50,948 bases of DNA from Planctomycetaceae bacterium (GTDB taxonomy: Bacteria; Planctomycetota; Planctomycetia; Planctomycetales; Planctomycetaceae). Within the stretch, counting starts at the first letter, position 1; each line of letters begins with the position of its first letter. The stretch covers positions 1-50,948 of the forward strand of contig JAHBXV010000044.1 of the NCBI GenBank assembly GCA_019636285.1. Reading direction: 5' to 3'. The translations under genes and the position numbers were made by a program. The notes beneath the pieces were generated by a model. That model was given only the letters and a program-made list of their open reading frames with translations, ran no database searches and was not told the origin of the DNA. This document shows positions 1,149 through 11,067 of the stretch, in pieces.

Positions 1149-2483
1149 TTAAACGACCACGTCTTCCGTCGAGGATGGCTCCGTTCCCGGCAGCGGGCGA
1201 ACCAGCGACATTCCCACAACTAAGGGACCGGCCCGCCCCAGCAGCATCAGCGCGATGATGATGCACTTTCCGAGCGGCGTCAGCGATCCGGTGATGCCTC
1301 GGCTCAGCCCGACGGTGCCGAGCGCGGAGGCGCATTCAAAGAACTGATCGACGAACGGCGAGCTTTCGACCAGCGTCAGCAAGTAAACGCCCAGACCGAG
1401 GGTGCCCAGGTAAAAGACAGCGTTCGCGACAGCAGCCCGGAGTCGCACTTCGGGGATCACGCGCCCCAGTAGCGATGTCACCGGTCGCCGCCTTAGGACG
1501 GACACGGCGTGACCCCATAGGGCAGAGATGGTCGTTGTCTTCATCCCGCCTCCCGTTCCGGCCGGCGACGCGCCGATCAGCATCATCAGGGTGAGCAGCA
1601 TCACCGAGGAAGCAGACAGCGCGCCGATTGGCACGGTGTTGAAACCGACCGTCGTCTGTGCGGTCATGACCTGAAAGAGGCTGGCCAGCCACGTTTCCTG
1701 CCACGGCGCCATTCGCACGGCTGGTTCTTCCAGCCAGAACAGCACGGTCCCCGCAACGGTCAGGATCGCCGTGCTCCAGAGGATGACGCGCGTCGTGAAC
1801 GTGACGTGCAGTTCGCGCGATCGCAGGCTCCGCCAGACATCATTGATGACAAGGAAGCCCATGGCACCCAGTTCGCTCAGGACAATGAGCGTCCCATTCA
1901 GCCAGACATTCCCCCGGTAGTCTTCAAAACTGTTGTTGAAGAGGCCAAACCCGGCCGTGCAGAAGGCGCTGATGCTGTGGAACACGCAAGTCCACAGTGC
2001 TTCGCCAAATGGTCTGTCGGCGAAGACCGGCCAGAGAGCCAAAGCGCCCAGAGATTCGACAACCAGCGTGTACCAGCAGACCAGCCGGACGAACCGCGAC
2101 ACGTCAAAGTCGACCGGCAGACTGAGGGCCGCCATGTTGAGTTGTTGACGCTCGACCGAGAGCGGCTTGCTGGCAGCCAGCAGCAGGAACGAACTGATCG
2201 TCATGTAACCCAGGCCGCCCGCCTGAATCAGCAGGATCAGCACGAGTTCACCCAGGAACGAATAACTATCGGCTGTGCTGATCGTGACCAGCCCGGTCGT
2301 CGAGACCGCCGACGCGGCCATGAAGAGATGGTCCAGCGCCTTGAGTCCCGGCTGCTCATGGCAGATGGGCAAGAGCAGGACAAGCCAGCCTGCCAGGACA
2401 TAGGACAGGTAGCCGACAACCAGCTTCTGCAAGACCGTCAACGAATTCCAGAACCGCGCGCACGTTTTCCACGTCGCCTGCAT
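1149..2483 (-). CDS. TrkH/KtrB family potassium uptake channel subunit
   Basis: 444-residue polytopic membrane protein of the Trk/Ktr/HKT superfamily, the ion-conducting subunit of a K+ (or Na+-coupled K+) uptake system. Four pore-loop repeats are recognisable by their filter glycines: VSTTGLVT (about residue 60), CTAGFGL (about 176), TTVGFNTVP (about 277) and LGTVGLSRG (about 391). The length fits KtrB better than long TrkH proteins. The ATG at 2483 is preceded by GGAG at a suitable distance. No cytoplasmic RCK partner (TrkA/KtrA) is encoded in the window, so it must be elsewhere or absent. The roughly 300-bp leader contains a strong match to the ydaO-type c-di-AMP riboswitch, pointing to control of K+ uptake by that nucleotide. 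Confidence 0.93.
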   Translation of the reverse strand: MQATWKTCARFWNSLTVLQKLVVGYLSYVLAGWLVLLLPICHEQPGLKALDHLFMAASAVSTTGLVTISTADSYSFLGELVLILLIQAGGLGYMTISSFLLLAASKPLSVERQQLNMAALSLPVDFDVSRFVRLVCWYTLVVESLGALALWPVFADRPFGEALWTCVFHSISAFCTAGFGLFNNSFEDYRGNVWLNGTLIVLSELGAMGFLVINDVWRSLRSRELHVTFTTRVILWSTAILTVAGTVLFWLEEPAVRMAPWQETWLASLFQVMTAQTTVGFNTVPIGALSASSVMLLTLMMLIGASPAGTGGGMKTTTISALWGHAVSVLRRRPVTSLLGRVIPEVRLRAAVANAVFYLGTLGLGVYLLTLVESSPFVDQFFECASALGTVGLSRGITGSLTPLGKCIIIALMLLGRAGPLVVGMSLVRPLPGTEPSSTEDVVV

Positions 2484-2591
2484 GGCCGCACTCCGTCATC
2501 GGGAGGCGCGAAACGCTTCTCGCGGCGCGCGCTCCCATCCGTAAAACTCGGGGACCGTGCCTGCGACGAACGACGTCGCGGAGAAGGCCGC

Positions 2592-2762
2592 CCTTCCAAT
2601 CGCCTACGGAGTTAGCTGACGGGCTGGGTCAAGGAAGTGACCTGCCGTACCGGTCGCCCGGACGACTGCGCCCCGTCTTCCTGCGGACTGGCCGGCAGAA
2701 AGAAATTGGATCCCCCGCGCCGGTGTCTGGATCCCCACCGGCCTCGGCTGCGAACACATCCA
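2592..2762 (-). promoter_or_regulatory. ydaO-yuaA type riboswitch (c-di-AMP), leader of trkH
   Basis: Read on the minus strand, this leader has the landmarks of the ydaO family. A stem strand (TTCGC) is followed by a 7-bp hairpin (GCCGGTG/CACCGGC), the core GGGGGATCCAATT, a hairpin GGTCA/TGACC, and the diagnostic 3' block CCCGTCAGCTAACTCCGTAG, whose following GCGA pairs back with the 5' TCGC. The 3' block is nearly identical to known ydaO elements. The element ends about 110 bp before the trkH start. The family binds c-di-AMP and commonly represses K+ transporters, osmolyte uptake and cell-wall genes. The match is by eye, without a covariance score; boundaries are approximate. Confidence 0.82.
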
Positions 2763-2849
2763 TTATTGCGAGGCGCGTCATTCGACGACAAGAGGGGGCT
2801 GTGCGGTTTGCCGTATGGTGAACGTAGGGGAGGGGTTGCGGCTGTTAAC

Positions 2850-2855
2850 ATTGTA
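2850..2855 (-). promoter_or_regulatory. Possible -10 box upstream of the trkH riboswitch
   Basis: Minus-strand hexamer TACAAT lies about 90 bp upstream of the riboswitch, in an otherwise GC-rich stretch, and would start transcription near 2842. No convincing TTGACA-like -35 is seen at 17-18 bp, so the call is weak. Apart from the riboswitch and this hexamer, 2763-2933 shows nothing gene-like. Confidence 0.25.
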
Positions 2856-2933
2856 GACTGGGAGAGCCACTGGCATATCCCAGCACTATCTTCACCTTGG
2901 ATCGATCAATAGTTCTCGCAACAGCGACGATGG

Positions 2934-3036
2934 GTGGCTGGGGTCAGGCGTCCGCGTCTGCCCCCAGCCTATTCGCACATGGGGTCGCTATGCTCGGGCT
3001 TTCTGGGGGCGGACGAAGACGTCCAACCCTAGCCAC
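2934..3036. repeat. Palindromic dispersed element, type 1, copy A
   Basis: Roughly 100-bp imperfect palindrome beginning GTGGCTGGGGTC and ending with its complement GACGTCCAACCCTAGCCAC; the arms also contain GCCCCCAG/CTGGGGGC. A second copy lies at 3557-3656 in the same orientation, with similar arms and a different centre. It would form a long hairpin in RNA or single-stranded DNA. No coding potential. Such elements resemble REP/MITE-like intergenic repeats; no transposase is nearby. Confidence 0.75.
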
Positions 3037-3101
3037 CCCGCCGCCGCCGCCAGCCACGCGACGTAGCGATTGACCATTGCAGATCGACTGGCGTTGGCAT
3101 T

Positions 3102-3494
3102 CTACCACGCTGTAAACGCAAGAAGTGCCACAATTAAATTGAATGCAACAGCCAGCATTGCTGCGGTGCTGCCACACCCTCCGCCCGTCTGGACTGTCGG
3201 TAAGTCGGCCACGTTCCACGTAAAGTCCGGGTCCAGCGAGCCGTCGTTCAGGTATGTTTTCAGGATCCTCAATGCCGCATCGCGATCGACTCGACCTTTC
3301 GGCTTTTGTGCGGCAGGCTTCTTGTGATCGAGATAGAGGACGAATGCGGAGTCGCCGGTGACCGTTGCCTGGACGACGTGCTTCGGATCCTGAAAGACAG
3401 CGACACCCAGAATGCGTTTTTCCTCAAACAGACGTTCAAGGTCAGCGTCCGTACCCGGATCAATCTTCTTTGCACCGGCTTCGATGTAGGCCAT
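3102..3494 (-). CDS. Small hypothetical protein with C-terminal membrane anchor
   Basis: 130-residue protein with no family I recognise. The N-terminal ~100 residues are soluble and charged (EEKRILGVAVFQDP, FVLYLDHKKP), reminiscent of a small alpha/beta fold. It ends with GGGCGSTAAMLAVAF followed by a hydrophobic stretch running to the C-terminus, which looks like a tail anchor. The ATG at 3494 has no strong Shine-Dalgarno. It sits between two copies of the type 1 palindrome (2934-3036 and 3557-3656), as if carried in an interval bounded by repeats. It may be a genuine accessory gene; function unknown. Confidence 0.55.
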   Translation of the reverse strand: MAYIEAGAKKIDPGTDADLERLFEEKRILGVAVFQDPKHVVQATVTGDSAFVLYLDHKKPAAQKPKGRVDRDAALRILKTYLNDGSLDPDFTWNVADLPTVQTGGGCGSTAAMLAVAFNLIVALLAFTAW

Positions 3495-8164: not shown

Positions 8165-10732
8165 TTATCCCCAAACCACAGCATACTGGACAATGAGCCC
8201 AGCCGCCACGACCGAGACGATGCTCATCAACTTGATGAGAATGTTGATGCTGGGGCCGGAAGTGTCCTTGAAGGGGTCGCCCACGGTGTCGCCGACGACC
8301 GTCGCCTTGTGCGCGTCGCTCCCCTTGCCGCCATGCGCGCCCGATTCCACGAATTTCTTGGCGTTGTCCCAGGCGCCGCCCGAGTTGGCCATCATGACGG
8401 CGACGGCGAATCCGGCGACCAGACCCCCAGCCAGAACGCCAACAACGCCCGCGACCCCCAGGACCATTCCGACCGCAATCGGAACCAGCAGGGCCAGCAG
8501 CGTCGGGGCGAGCATTTCCCGCTGAGCCGCCTTGGTGCTGATCGAAACGCATTCCTGGTAGTCGGGCTTCTGCTCGCCGGTAAAGATGCCGGGAAACTCG
8601 CGAAACTGCCGACGGACTTCGTCGACCATCTCGCCCGCCGCACGTCCGACGGCTTTCATCGTCATCGCGGTGAAGAGATAGACCAGCAGAGTTCCCAGAA
8701 ACAGGCCGACCAGGACGCGCGGATTCACGAGCGAGAGATCGTAGAACCGCGAAAGATCGGGAATCGTCGCCCGCGAATGCAGAATGGCCTGACCCGACCG
8801 CCGCAGCCCTTCGAGGTCGACCCCCTCCAGCGTCGCCCCCACGGGAGCCTTCTGAATGTCGCTTGTCAGTTCCGGAAAACGCCGGTCGGCGAACAGTAGA
8901 ACGGCCTGGTTCGTGGTCGCCCCTTCTTCGCGCATGGCAAGCAGATTCGGGCTTAATTTCCGCATCGTGACGTTGCCCAGATCGGTCGATTCCGCGATCG
9001 CCGGCTCTTTGGCTGCCCAGCGTCCCAGTCCGACTCGCACCTCTTCCATATACGCGGCAAGCAGGGCCAGGGCGGTGAGAGCGGCCGACCCGATCGCGAA
9101 ACCCTTGCCGGTCGCGGCGGTCGTGTTGCCCAGGCTGTCGAGGGCGTCGGTCCGCTCGCGAACGAAGCTGGGCTGGTGGCTCATTTCGGCATTGCCGCCC
9201 GCGTTATCGGCAATCGGCCCATAGGCATCGGTTGCGAGCGTGATGGCCAGCGTGCTGAGCATGCCCACGGCCGACATGCCGATGCCGTACAGTCCGAGAG
9301 CGAACAAGTCGGCATTGCTGATCTGGAATCCGGTTGTCAGCGAGAACGCCAGCAGAATGGCTCCCGCAATAATCGCGATCGGAGCCCAGACACTGGCAAA
9401 GCCTTCGGCAATACCGGCGATAATGACGGTGGCTGGTCCCGTCAACGCCTGCTTGGCGATGCGCTGCGTCGGGGGGTATTCCTGGCTGGTGACATAACCG
9501 GTCCACTTGCCGATCAACCAGCCCGCGGCACACCCGATGACGATCGAAAGGGCCACGCCATACAACATGGCGGAGGTCATCTGGGAATTGGCGAGCATGC
9601 CCGGCTGGCTGGCGGGCATCACCAGCAGCAGGTAGACGAGGATGAAGGCCGCGACAACGCTTCCTGCCGTCGCGACGTTCACACCGCGATCGAGTGCATG
9701 CAGCAGGTTGTGCTGGGTGGCCCCTTCTTCGGTCCGCACCTGATAAACCCCGAAGATCGACAGGACGGCCCCGATCGATGCCAGGCAATACGGCAGGAGC
9801 AGCGCGTAGAGCTGCATGGTCGGCGAGCCCTGAAACGCTGCGACGCCAAGTGCCGCCGTCGCGAGAATCGATCCGCAATAGGATTCGTAGAGGTCGGCCC
9901 CCATGCCGGCCACGTCGCCCACGTTGTCGCCCACGTTGTCGGCAATCGTCGCCGGGTTGCGGGGATCGTCTTCGGGAATGTTCTTCTCGACTTTGCCGAC
10001 CAGGTCGGCGCCGACGTCGGCCGCCTTGGTGAAAATACCTCCGCCGACACGGGCGAAGAGGGCCTGGCTGCTGGCTCCCATTCCGCCGCAGAGCATCGTG
10101 ATGGTAACGTCCTGCAAGCTCAGGCCGACCAAGCCGTACAGAATGCCAAACCAGATCGACAGATCGAGCAGCCCGAGGCCGACAACGACCAGCCCCATGA
10201 CCGCCCCGCTGCGAAAGGCGACTTGCAGACCCTGGTTGAGCGAGTTCTTGGCGGCCCAGGCAGTTCGGGAACTGGCCAGCGTGGCCGTCCGCATGCCAAA
10301 CCAGCCCGCGAGACCCGAGTAAAAACCGCTGGTCCAGAATGCCAGCGGAACAAACTTCGACTGCGTTCCGAACACGAACGCCAGGATTGCCAGAAGGATC
10401 CCGGCTGCGATGAAGAACTTGATGACGACTTTGTATTGCTGATTGAGATACGCCTTCGCGCCGGCGCGTACCGCGTCGGCGATTTCAATCATCGCGGGGT
10501 CGCCCTCATCCTGGCTCACCATCCAACGAAAGAAATTCCGGGCGGCGAACAGGGCAATGATGGCTCCGAGCAGCACGAAGCCCCAGATTGCGACGATGTC
10601 AGAAAAACCAGTTGCCGGTGGGGCGGCCTGCTCCGCCGCGACAGCGGTCGACACTCCGGTCAATCCGTGCGAAAGGGTCAGCAATACCGCAATTCCCGAC
10701 CAACCCCGTCGTCCGTAAGCCGTGTGCTTCAT
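8165..10732 (-). CDS. hppA: Membrane-bound ion-pumping pyrophosphatase, K+-dependent type
   Basis: 855-residue integral membrane PPase that couples pyrophosphate hydrolysis to H+ or Na+ export. The ATG at 10732 is preceded by AAGAGAG; an apparent N-terminal signal precedes the first helix. Family motifs: GADLVGKVEKNIPEDDPRN and ADNVGDNVGDVAGMGAD (Mg-PPi binding), DAYGPIADNAGGNAEM, GNTTAATGKGFAIG, and the C-terminal DTVGDPFKDTSGPS. The Ala in GNTTAA, rather than Lys, is the signature of K+-dependent enzymes, many of which pump Na+. After the GNTTAA helix there is a ~115-residue segment (EEVRVGL to FYDLSLVNP) where usual members have a short loop, explaining the excess length; by family topology it lies outside the cytoplasm. 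The pumped ion cannot be settled from sequence alone. Confidence 0.95.
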   Translation of the reverse strand: MKHTAYGRRGWSGIAVLLTLSHGLTGVSTAVAAEQAAPPATGFSDIVAIWGFVLLGAIIALFAARNFFRWMVSQDEGDPAMIEIADAVRAGAKAYLNQQYKVVIKFFIAAGILLAILAFVFGTQSKFVPLAFWTSGFYSGLAGWFGMRTATLASSRTAWAAKNSLNQGLQVAFRSGAVMGLVVVGLGLLDLSIWFGILYGLVGLSLQDVTITMLCGGMGASSQALFARVGGGIFTKAADVGADLVGKVEKNIPEDDPRNPATIADNVGDNVGDVAGMGADLYESYCGSILATAALGVAAFQGSPTMQLYALLLPYCLASIGAVLSIFGVYQVRTEEGATQHNLLHALDRGVNVATAGSVVAAFILVYLLLVMPASQPGMLANSQMTSAMLYGVALSIVIGCAAGWLIGKWTGYVTSQEYPPTQRIAKQALTGPATVIIAGIAEGFASVWAPIAIIAGAILLAFSLTTGFQISNADLFALGLYGIGMSAVGMLSTLAITLATDAYGPIADNAGGNAEMSHQPSFVRERTDALDSLGNTTAATGKGFAIGSAALTALALLAAYMEEVRVGLGRWAAKEPAIAESTDLGNVTMRKLSPNLLAMREEGATTNQAVLLFADRRFPELTSDIQKAPVGATLEGVDLEGLRRSGQAILHSRATIPDLSRFYDLSLVNPRVLVGLFLGTLLVYLFTAMTMKAVGRAAGEMVDEVRRQFREFPGIFTGEQKPDYQECVSISTKAAQREMLAPTLLALLVPIAVGMVLGVAGVVGVLAGGLVAGFAVAVMMANSGGAWDNAKKFVESGAHGGKGSDAHKATVVGDTVGDPFKDTSGPSINILIKLMSIVSVVAAGLIVQYAVVWG

Positions 10733-11067
10733 GGTGCTCTCTTGTGTGCCGATCTCGATGGACCGTGACGCGTCGTGCATCCCGGCAGAGCGTACTTTGC
10801 GCGATCTTCATCGTGACGACAATCATGCACTGACGTTTCTTGATGCGACCGTTGCGGGGACGCGGACCAACCCGGTGGTTGGCAAGCGAAGGCGGTCCGC
10901 ATACGATTTGTGATGCCAAATGAATTTGACGAACTCGCTGCGATTGCGCTGTCCGCTTTTCAGTCGGCCGAACGGGAATCTGTCAGTCTCCGCATCGCAC
11001 GAAACAACCTGATACCGCACACATCCCGGCTTTCCGCAAGTCGGGTTCCTGCCGAAGGATCGTCCAA
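10733..11067. other. Divergent hppA/thiC intergenic region with a strong nested hairpin
   Basis: 335-bp gap between divergent genes. At 10861-10901 outer arms GCGGACC/GGTCCGC enclose an inner hairpin CCAACC-cggt-GGTTGG, giving a compact structured element within the hppA leader or the thiC promoter region. I looked for a TPP riboswitch before thiC: an AACCTGATACC string is present at about 11004, but the CTGAGA element and pairing partners are absent. GAAGGA at 11053-11058 is the thiC ribosome-binding site. No gene seen. Confidence 0.45.

Follow-up and report, generated by a model that had tools for sequence, protein, structure and literature searches.

The leader of a potassium channel gene close to the end of a planctomycete contig raises the question of whether K+ uptake in this phylum is controlled by a c-di-AMP riboswitch and, if so, at which level and in which direction such a switch would act. 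The window analysed was a whole stretch of 50,948 bp (Planctomycetaceae bacterium, assembly GCA_019636285.1, contig JAHBXV010000044.1, positions 1–50,948), in which the first-pass annotation had placed a ydaO-type riboswitch at 2592–2762. Scanning of the window against all 4227 Rfam families revealed RF00379, the ydaO/yuaA c-di-AMP riboswitch, as the sole match above the gathering score, at 2586–2759 on the minus strand (cmscan, 174 nt, 51.2 bits, E 4.6e-9), so that the proposed coordinates were right within 3–6 bases. The model was covered end to end (1–134 of 134, not truncated), and the score was 13 bits above the gathering score of 38, whereas a low covariance score had been named as grounds for rejection. 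Both motifs quoted in the annotation, CCCGTCAGCTAACTCCGTAG and GGGGGATCCAATT, were present. Riboswitches of RF00379 bind c-di-AMP in two pockets. In the whole genome, this was the only match above the cut-off. A second copy at a sub-threshold 23.0 bits (G000:C30:32590–32728, minus strand) was rejected as a chance match because it lies antisense within an ORF of 436 aa, next to which stands another that by eye resembles it. For the window's own match, nothing beyond GC richness speaks for chance resemblance, against which stand the E value and the presence of the aptamer before ktrB in three orthologues, window included; the probability of chance is negligible.

Four core motifs, defined as GCCGA, CGGGGGAxCC, GGGGxG and GUCAGCUAAC, were sought and tallied over 74 aptamers, and all four were intact in the window aptamer as GCCGAG, CGGGGGATCC, GGGGCGCA and GTCAGCTAAC. 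The RF00379 alignment placed the 3′ strand CUCCGU of an aptamer helix (the one written with square brackets in Rfam) at 2606–2611 on the minus strand, with its partner GCGGGG at 2718–2713. The ydaO aptamers also contain a pseudoknot. In the window, the P5-loop strand CUUCC (CTTCC, 2637–2633, minus strand), in the loop of the hairpin preceding the CCCGUCAGCUAAC signature, pairs with GGAAG (2597–2593, minus strand) in the 3′ tail, and since the covariance model does not score pseudoknots, this pairing is evidence independent of the RF00379 score.

The pseudoknot was examined in the same 74 aptamers, obtained from 51 above the cut-off in the phylum search and 26 in the family search with 3 shared. 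The loop of the hairpin preceding the CAGCUAAC signature was scored against the 3′ tail, and the control consisted of tails swapped between loci, which takes no account of kinship among them. In 59 insert-free loci, pairing with the own tail scored 15.2 compared to 10.9 (sd 0.3) with swapped tails, and 0/300 swaps were as high; on this pairing score, the pseudoknot covaries across the relatives. The hairpin-defined loop replaced the loose window of an earlier test, which covered 72 loci (2 without the signature being dropped), included many off-target pairings and gave 15.2 compared to 13.6, with a maximum of 14.4 among 50 swaps. The signal was weaker in 15 insert-bearing loci, separated post hoc after they had been read (15.4 compared to 13.5, sd 0.56; best of 300 swaps 15.2), because most of them have an identical loop. 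The insert is an extra stable hairpin that separates the closing helix from the pseudoknot strand; it measures 26–31 nt, and 77 nt in one case, and it was seen in 15 of the 26 above-cut-off aptamers of the window's family, all from f1 genomes (L048, L141–L145, L148–L153, L159–L161). The pseudoknot strand is displaced in these aptamers, with its complementarity to the loop kept. The window aptamer has no inserted hairpin.

The score of the window aptamer is among the lowest, a single match out of the 51 in the phylum search falling below 51.2 bits, as could be expected of a degenerate aptamer that has lost c-di-AMP binding or responds to another ligand. Such degeneration is very improbable, considering that the core motifs sought and the pseudoknot are kept, and that the aptamer is retained in orthologues of two other genera. 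The trkH/ktrB leader carries an apparently genuine c-di-AMP riboswitch of the ydaO class, as judged from its sequence.

The search for enzymes of c-di-AMP turnover covered a genome of 6.37 Mb in 113 contigs, with 99.77% completeness. The absence of a cyclase had been put forward as an argument against the riboswitch, and one DAC domain (76.7 bits), a predicted diadenylate cyclase, was found, together with one PgpH-type 7TM-HD match, a predicted phosphodiesterase. The DAC protein (453 aa, L165:5053–6414, minus strand, G000:C31) consists of PTS_EIIA_2, DacZ_P and DAC domains. This fusion is the genome's only diadenylate cyclase match, and its EIIA portion suggests that c-di-AMP synthesis may receive a sugar-phosphotransfer input. 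Across the phylum, 361 of the 392 genomes have a DAC domain. By manual matching, this DAC list includes 43 of the 46 genomes that bear the aptamer; among the exceptions (G081, G252 and G302), two were listed as empty in the DAC search and one was missing from the list. This co-occurrence says little because DAC is nearly universal in the phylum.

The gene following the aptamer (1149–2483, minus strand) encodes a 444-aa protein with a TrkH domain (Pfam PF02386, 165.9 bits, cut-off 27), and its ATG at 2483 lies 102 nt from the 3′ end of the aptamer. The potassium channel of the TrkH family announced in the first-pass annotation was therefore present, but it is better named an orphan KtrB, because all five solved structures matched in the PDB at E ≤ 1e-5 were KtrB. 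The other TrkH-family gene of the genome, on contig C59, adjoins a gene for a TrkA_N/TrkA_C protein, and further TrkA_N genes are present in the genome. A KtrA-like gene was sought at E ≤ 1e-3 with the KtrA-like protein of C59, which as a positive control finds itself on C59. None was found in the window, where the contig stops 1.1 kb past ktrB, or in the records of 15 other riboswitch-borne genes of the same KtrB clade, the records covering roughly 0.7 kb to several kb beyond ktrB. As far as seen, the riboswitch-borne ktrB genes of the clade are orphans. A membrane H+-pyrophosphatase (H_PPase, 837 bits) is encoded at 8165–10780 on the minus strand of the window, approximately 6 kb from ktrB. 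DUF1501 and DUF1559 proteins, which belong to families abundant in planctomycetes, were also matched by Pfam.

A single close orthologue of the window KtrB was found in 101 family genomes (G216, 56% identity), and it is preceded by the aptamer; identity was at most 39% for the remaining TrkH-family proteins listed in these genomes, among them the C59 copy. Class-wide, six orthologues were obtained at E ≤ 1e-75 in 397 genomes, the window's genome counted. The aptamer accompanies the orthologue in G000, G216 and G550 (the last with 57% identity), G216 and G550 being two other genera, and is missing from those of G633, G600 and G763. A KtrB scan of named-organism contigs kept 80 loci, mostly of Bacillota, with 32–39% identity. 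A quick tree of 49 proteins was constructed with SH-aLRT support only, taking 14 of 28 family loci (L169–L196) and 8 of the 80 named loci, and excluding L028. The window KtrB sits in a clade of 20 rows with a support of 100, composed of 16 rows with the aptamer (from ten families), three orthologues without it and one contig labelled Cellulophaga; its nearest kin belong to families f60, f106 and f1. Outside this clade fall six further TrkH-family proteins with a riboswitch, all of f27, and L052 (f80) has a very long branch. For these reasons, more than one origin or transfer of the pairing of riboswitch and TrkH-family gene is probable; the supported branches require at least three changes in it. 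The KtrB found inside the riboswitch-borne clade under the label Cellulophaga sp. (L053, JANQTG010000243.1) is perhaps from a misbinned contig.

The level of control was approached through the leader. A promoter-like site, TTGTCG-18-AATAAT, lies directly 5′ of the aptamer (2762–2791, minus strand); it is a consensus match only, and one such site was found in 2400–3110 compared to 0.1 expected in shuffles. Between the aptamer and the start codon lies the presumed expression platform of 102 nt (2484–2585, minus strand). No intrinsic-terminator-like site was found in 2400–3110 under a strict rule (perfect stem, loop 3–8), by which imperfect or long-loop stems are missed, and a laxer scan of the window leader gave as its best hairpin before a T-rich stretch one of only −2.7 kcal/mol. 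The strict scan detected terminators in 0 of 20 KtrB leaders (0.7 expected), and the laxer scan in 7 of 20 compared to 5.25 expected, mainly in family f27; because of these seven relatives, the absence of a terminator is claimed for the window leader and not for the phylum. In f27 KtrB leaders (L011, L013, L021, L022 and L024), the pseudoknot tail takes part in a stem, after which comes a T-rich stretch such as TCATTTGC. These stems are possible imperfect terminators, not enriched over shuffles. For the window leader, since no intrinsic terminator was found, the translational level is the likeliest one at which control would be exerted.

If control is translational, the ligand might act in either direction on the Shine-Dalgarno region ACGGAGU (2496–2490, minus strand). 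This region is the exact seven-base complement of ACUCCGU (2612–2606, minus strand) in the aptamer, a match of weak significance, and the complementarity recurs in other letters in G216 (CCTCGCA/TGCGAGG). In an ON switch built on it, the ligand-free aptamer strand would pair with the Shine-Dalgarno region and block translation, and c-di-AMP would hold this strand within the aptamer and so free the site. The pairing was scored in 62 of the 74 loci, with start codons chosen by a script according to SD-like strength. Among 21 KtrB loci the excess was modest (14.19 compared to 13.46, sd 0.38, with Shine-Dalgarno regions swapped; 51 of 2000 swaps as high), but no excess could be observed before KimA-like genes (1740 of 2000 swaps as high), SPFH genes (1886) or APC2 genes (732), and for all 62 loci 60 of 500 swaps were as high. 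A GAGG/CCUC complement is, moreover, built into Shine-Dalgarno regions and the aptamer strand in general, and the G550 orthologue shows, by eye, only about four contiguous pairs. Constrained folding is in line with an ON switch to a slight degree, GGAG being unpaired at 0.47 when aptamer and pseudoknot are both imposed, compared to 0.27 without them. The unconstrained fold of the leader (−143.6 kcal/mol) is not the aptamer fold, which reaches −124.7 kcal/mol when imposed, with the energies of pseudoknot and ligand uncounted; free-energy folding is not decisive for a leader of such length and GC content. An ON switch would also mean more K+ uptake at high c-di-AMP, which contradicts the known logic, and it is considered unlikely.

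An OFF switch that leaves the Shine-Dalgarno region aside was also considered, in which ligand-induced folding would expose or hide a rut or RNase site and thereby act through Rho-dependent termination or mRNA stability. The window leader would suit it, being long and having neither an intrinsic terminator that could be found nor a clear Shine-Dalgarno switch. No positive evidence points to it, and we rate it as unlikely.

The explanation that we hold to be the best, and fairly probable, is a ydaO-class riboswitch in the leader of an orphan ktrB in which binding of c-di-AMP lowers KtrB synthesis at translation initiation, that is, an OFF switch. In this mechanism, c-di-AMP would be made by the single EIIA-DacZ_P-DAC cyclase and degraded by the PgpH-type phosphodiesterase, with both activities predicted. 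Its binding to the aptamer would stabilize the closing helices and the loop-tail pseudoknot, and the ligand-bound aptamer would refold the 102-nt platform and alter access to the Shine-Dalgarno region, such that KtrB synthesis would presumably fall when c-di-AMP is high. OFF is preferred because abundant K+ is expected to go with high c-di-AMP, and the physiology of c-di-AMP and K+ importers favours it; the sequence evidence does not show OFF, and the Shine-Dalgarno complementarity hints weakly toward ON. Several observations count against the OFF switch. The aptamer is present in only three of six close KtrB orthologues, the complementarity of the Shine-Dalgarno region to the aptamer's own 3′ strand and the slightly more open GGAG both lean to ON, and the two characterised OFF examples use terminators, of which none was found in the window leader. 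An anti-pseudoknot hairpin between the tail and downstream pyrimidines, which would have served an OFF switch, was tried and rejected; it had seemed promising on inspection of three orthologues, yet it did not exceed shuffles (p 0.34 for the window), and p < 0.05 was reached in 0 of 22 KtrB loci and in 5 of all 59 loci.

The window is not the only planctomycete instance. The riboswitch itself was confirmed there, but the phylum search with RF00379 revealed 51 aptamers above the cut-off in 46 of 392 genomes, and the window's own family contained 26 in 22 of 101 genomes, both under strict filters by which weak matches are lost. The ORFs 3′ of the 74 aptamers were grouped by BLAST into TrkH/KtrB (23, including L028, a short ORF, and the distant L052), permeases presumed from sequence motifs to be KimA-like (17), SPFH-like (14), a second (8) and a third (3) permease group, Kup (2), and others or ORFs cut by contig ends (7). 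Pfam, run on eight of the downstream proteins, assigned Kup to K_trans, the KimA-like L138 and the ungrouped L153 to AA_permease_2, and the SPFH-like L034 to Band_7, while L044 of the second permease group received a Usp domain only; no Pfam family was obtained for L136 of the third group, L048 or the SPFH-like L141, which is truncated where its record ends. The 14 SPFH-like genes are those of L003, L030, L034, L141–L144, L148–L150, L152 and L159–L161. The aptamer of G105 precedes a 112-aa ORF (L048:4260–4595), itself without a Pfam family, which by eye is a short membrane protein. In L008 (G037), the aptamer precedes an ORF resembling, by eye, the start of trehalose-phosphate synthase, which we take to be an osmolyte gene.

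A wider reading would join these observations into a phylum-wide c-di-AMP riboswitch regulon of KtrB, KimA-like permeases, Kup and SPFH-like genes, in which translational control would have replaced the terminator in the window's lineage, including an ON switch before the orphan ktrB, and a variant aptamer of the family would have its pseudoknot strand beyond the inserted hairpin. Taken whole, this reading is possible but rather doubtful. Control of turgor by c-di-AMP, which the first-pass annotation had drawn from the locus, is likewise something that we infer.

In the papers searched, no report of a ydaO or c-di-AMP riboswitch in Planctomycetes was retrieved, and a prior listing is possible (e.g., in the Rfam species list). 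The locus is a known riboswitch class in a little-described place. It would bring c-di-AMP control of K+ uptake to the phylum, tied to a dedicated orphan KtrB lineage, and the window leader together with the leaders of its relatives provides material for testing translational control by the ydaO class.

The riboswitch class and its tie to Ktr genes are already known, and in B. subtilis the ydaO/yuaA riboswitches precede ydaO/kimA and yuaA/ktrA. The window resembles them in the full-length aptamer, the conserved core, the loop-tail pseudoknot and the position before a K+ uptake gene, and differs in that its gene is ktrB alone, with no ktrA. Compared with KtrB of Ktr systems (PDB 7zpr, 8k1s and 4j7c), the window protein is matched within residues 12–433, whereas its gene is an orphan without a KtrA-like neighbour. 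The c-di-AMP-bound ydaO of B. subtilis is an off switch working by transcription termination at a terminator (PMC5575661), unlike the window leader, in which none was found. The ydaO-like riboswitch of Streptomyces rpfA, of the same aptamer class and likewise outside Firmicutes, is reported to be an off switch through which transcription termination governs a cell-wall hydrolase (PMC10117811), whereas the gene following the window aptamer encodes a K+ channel.
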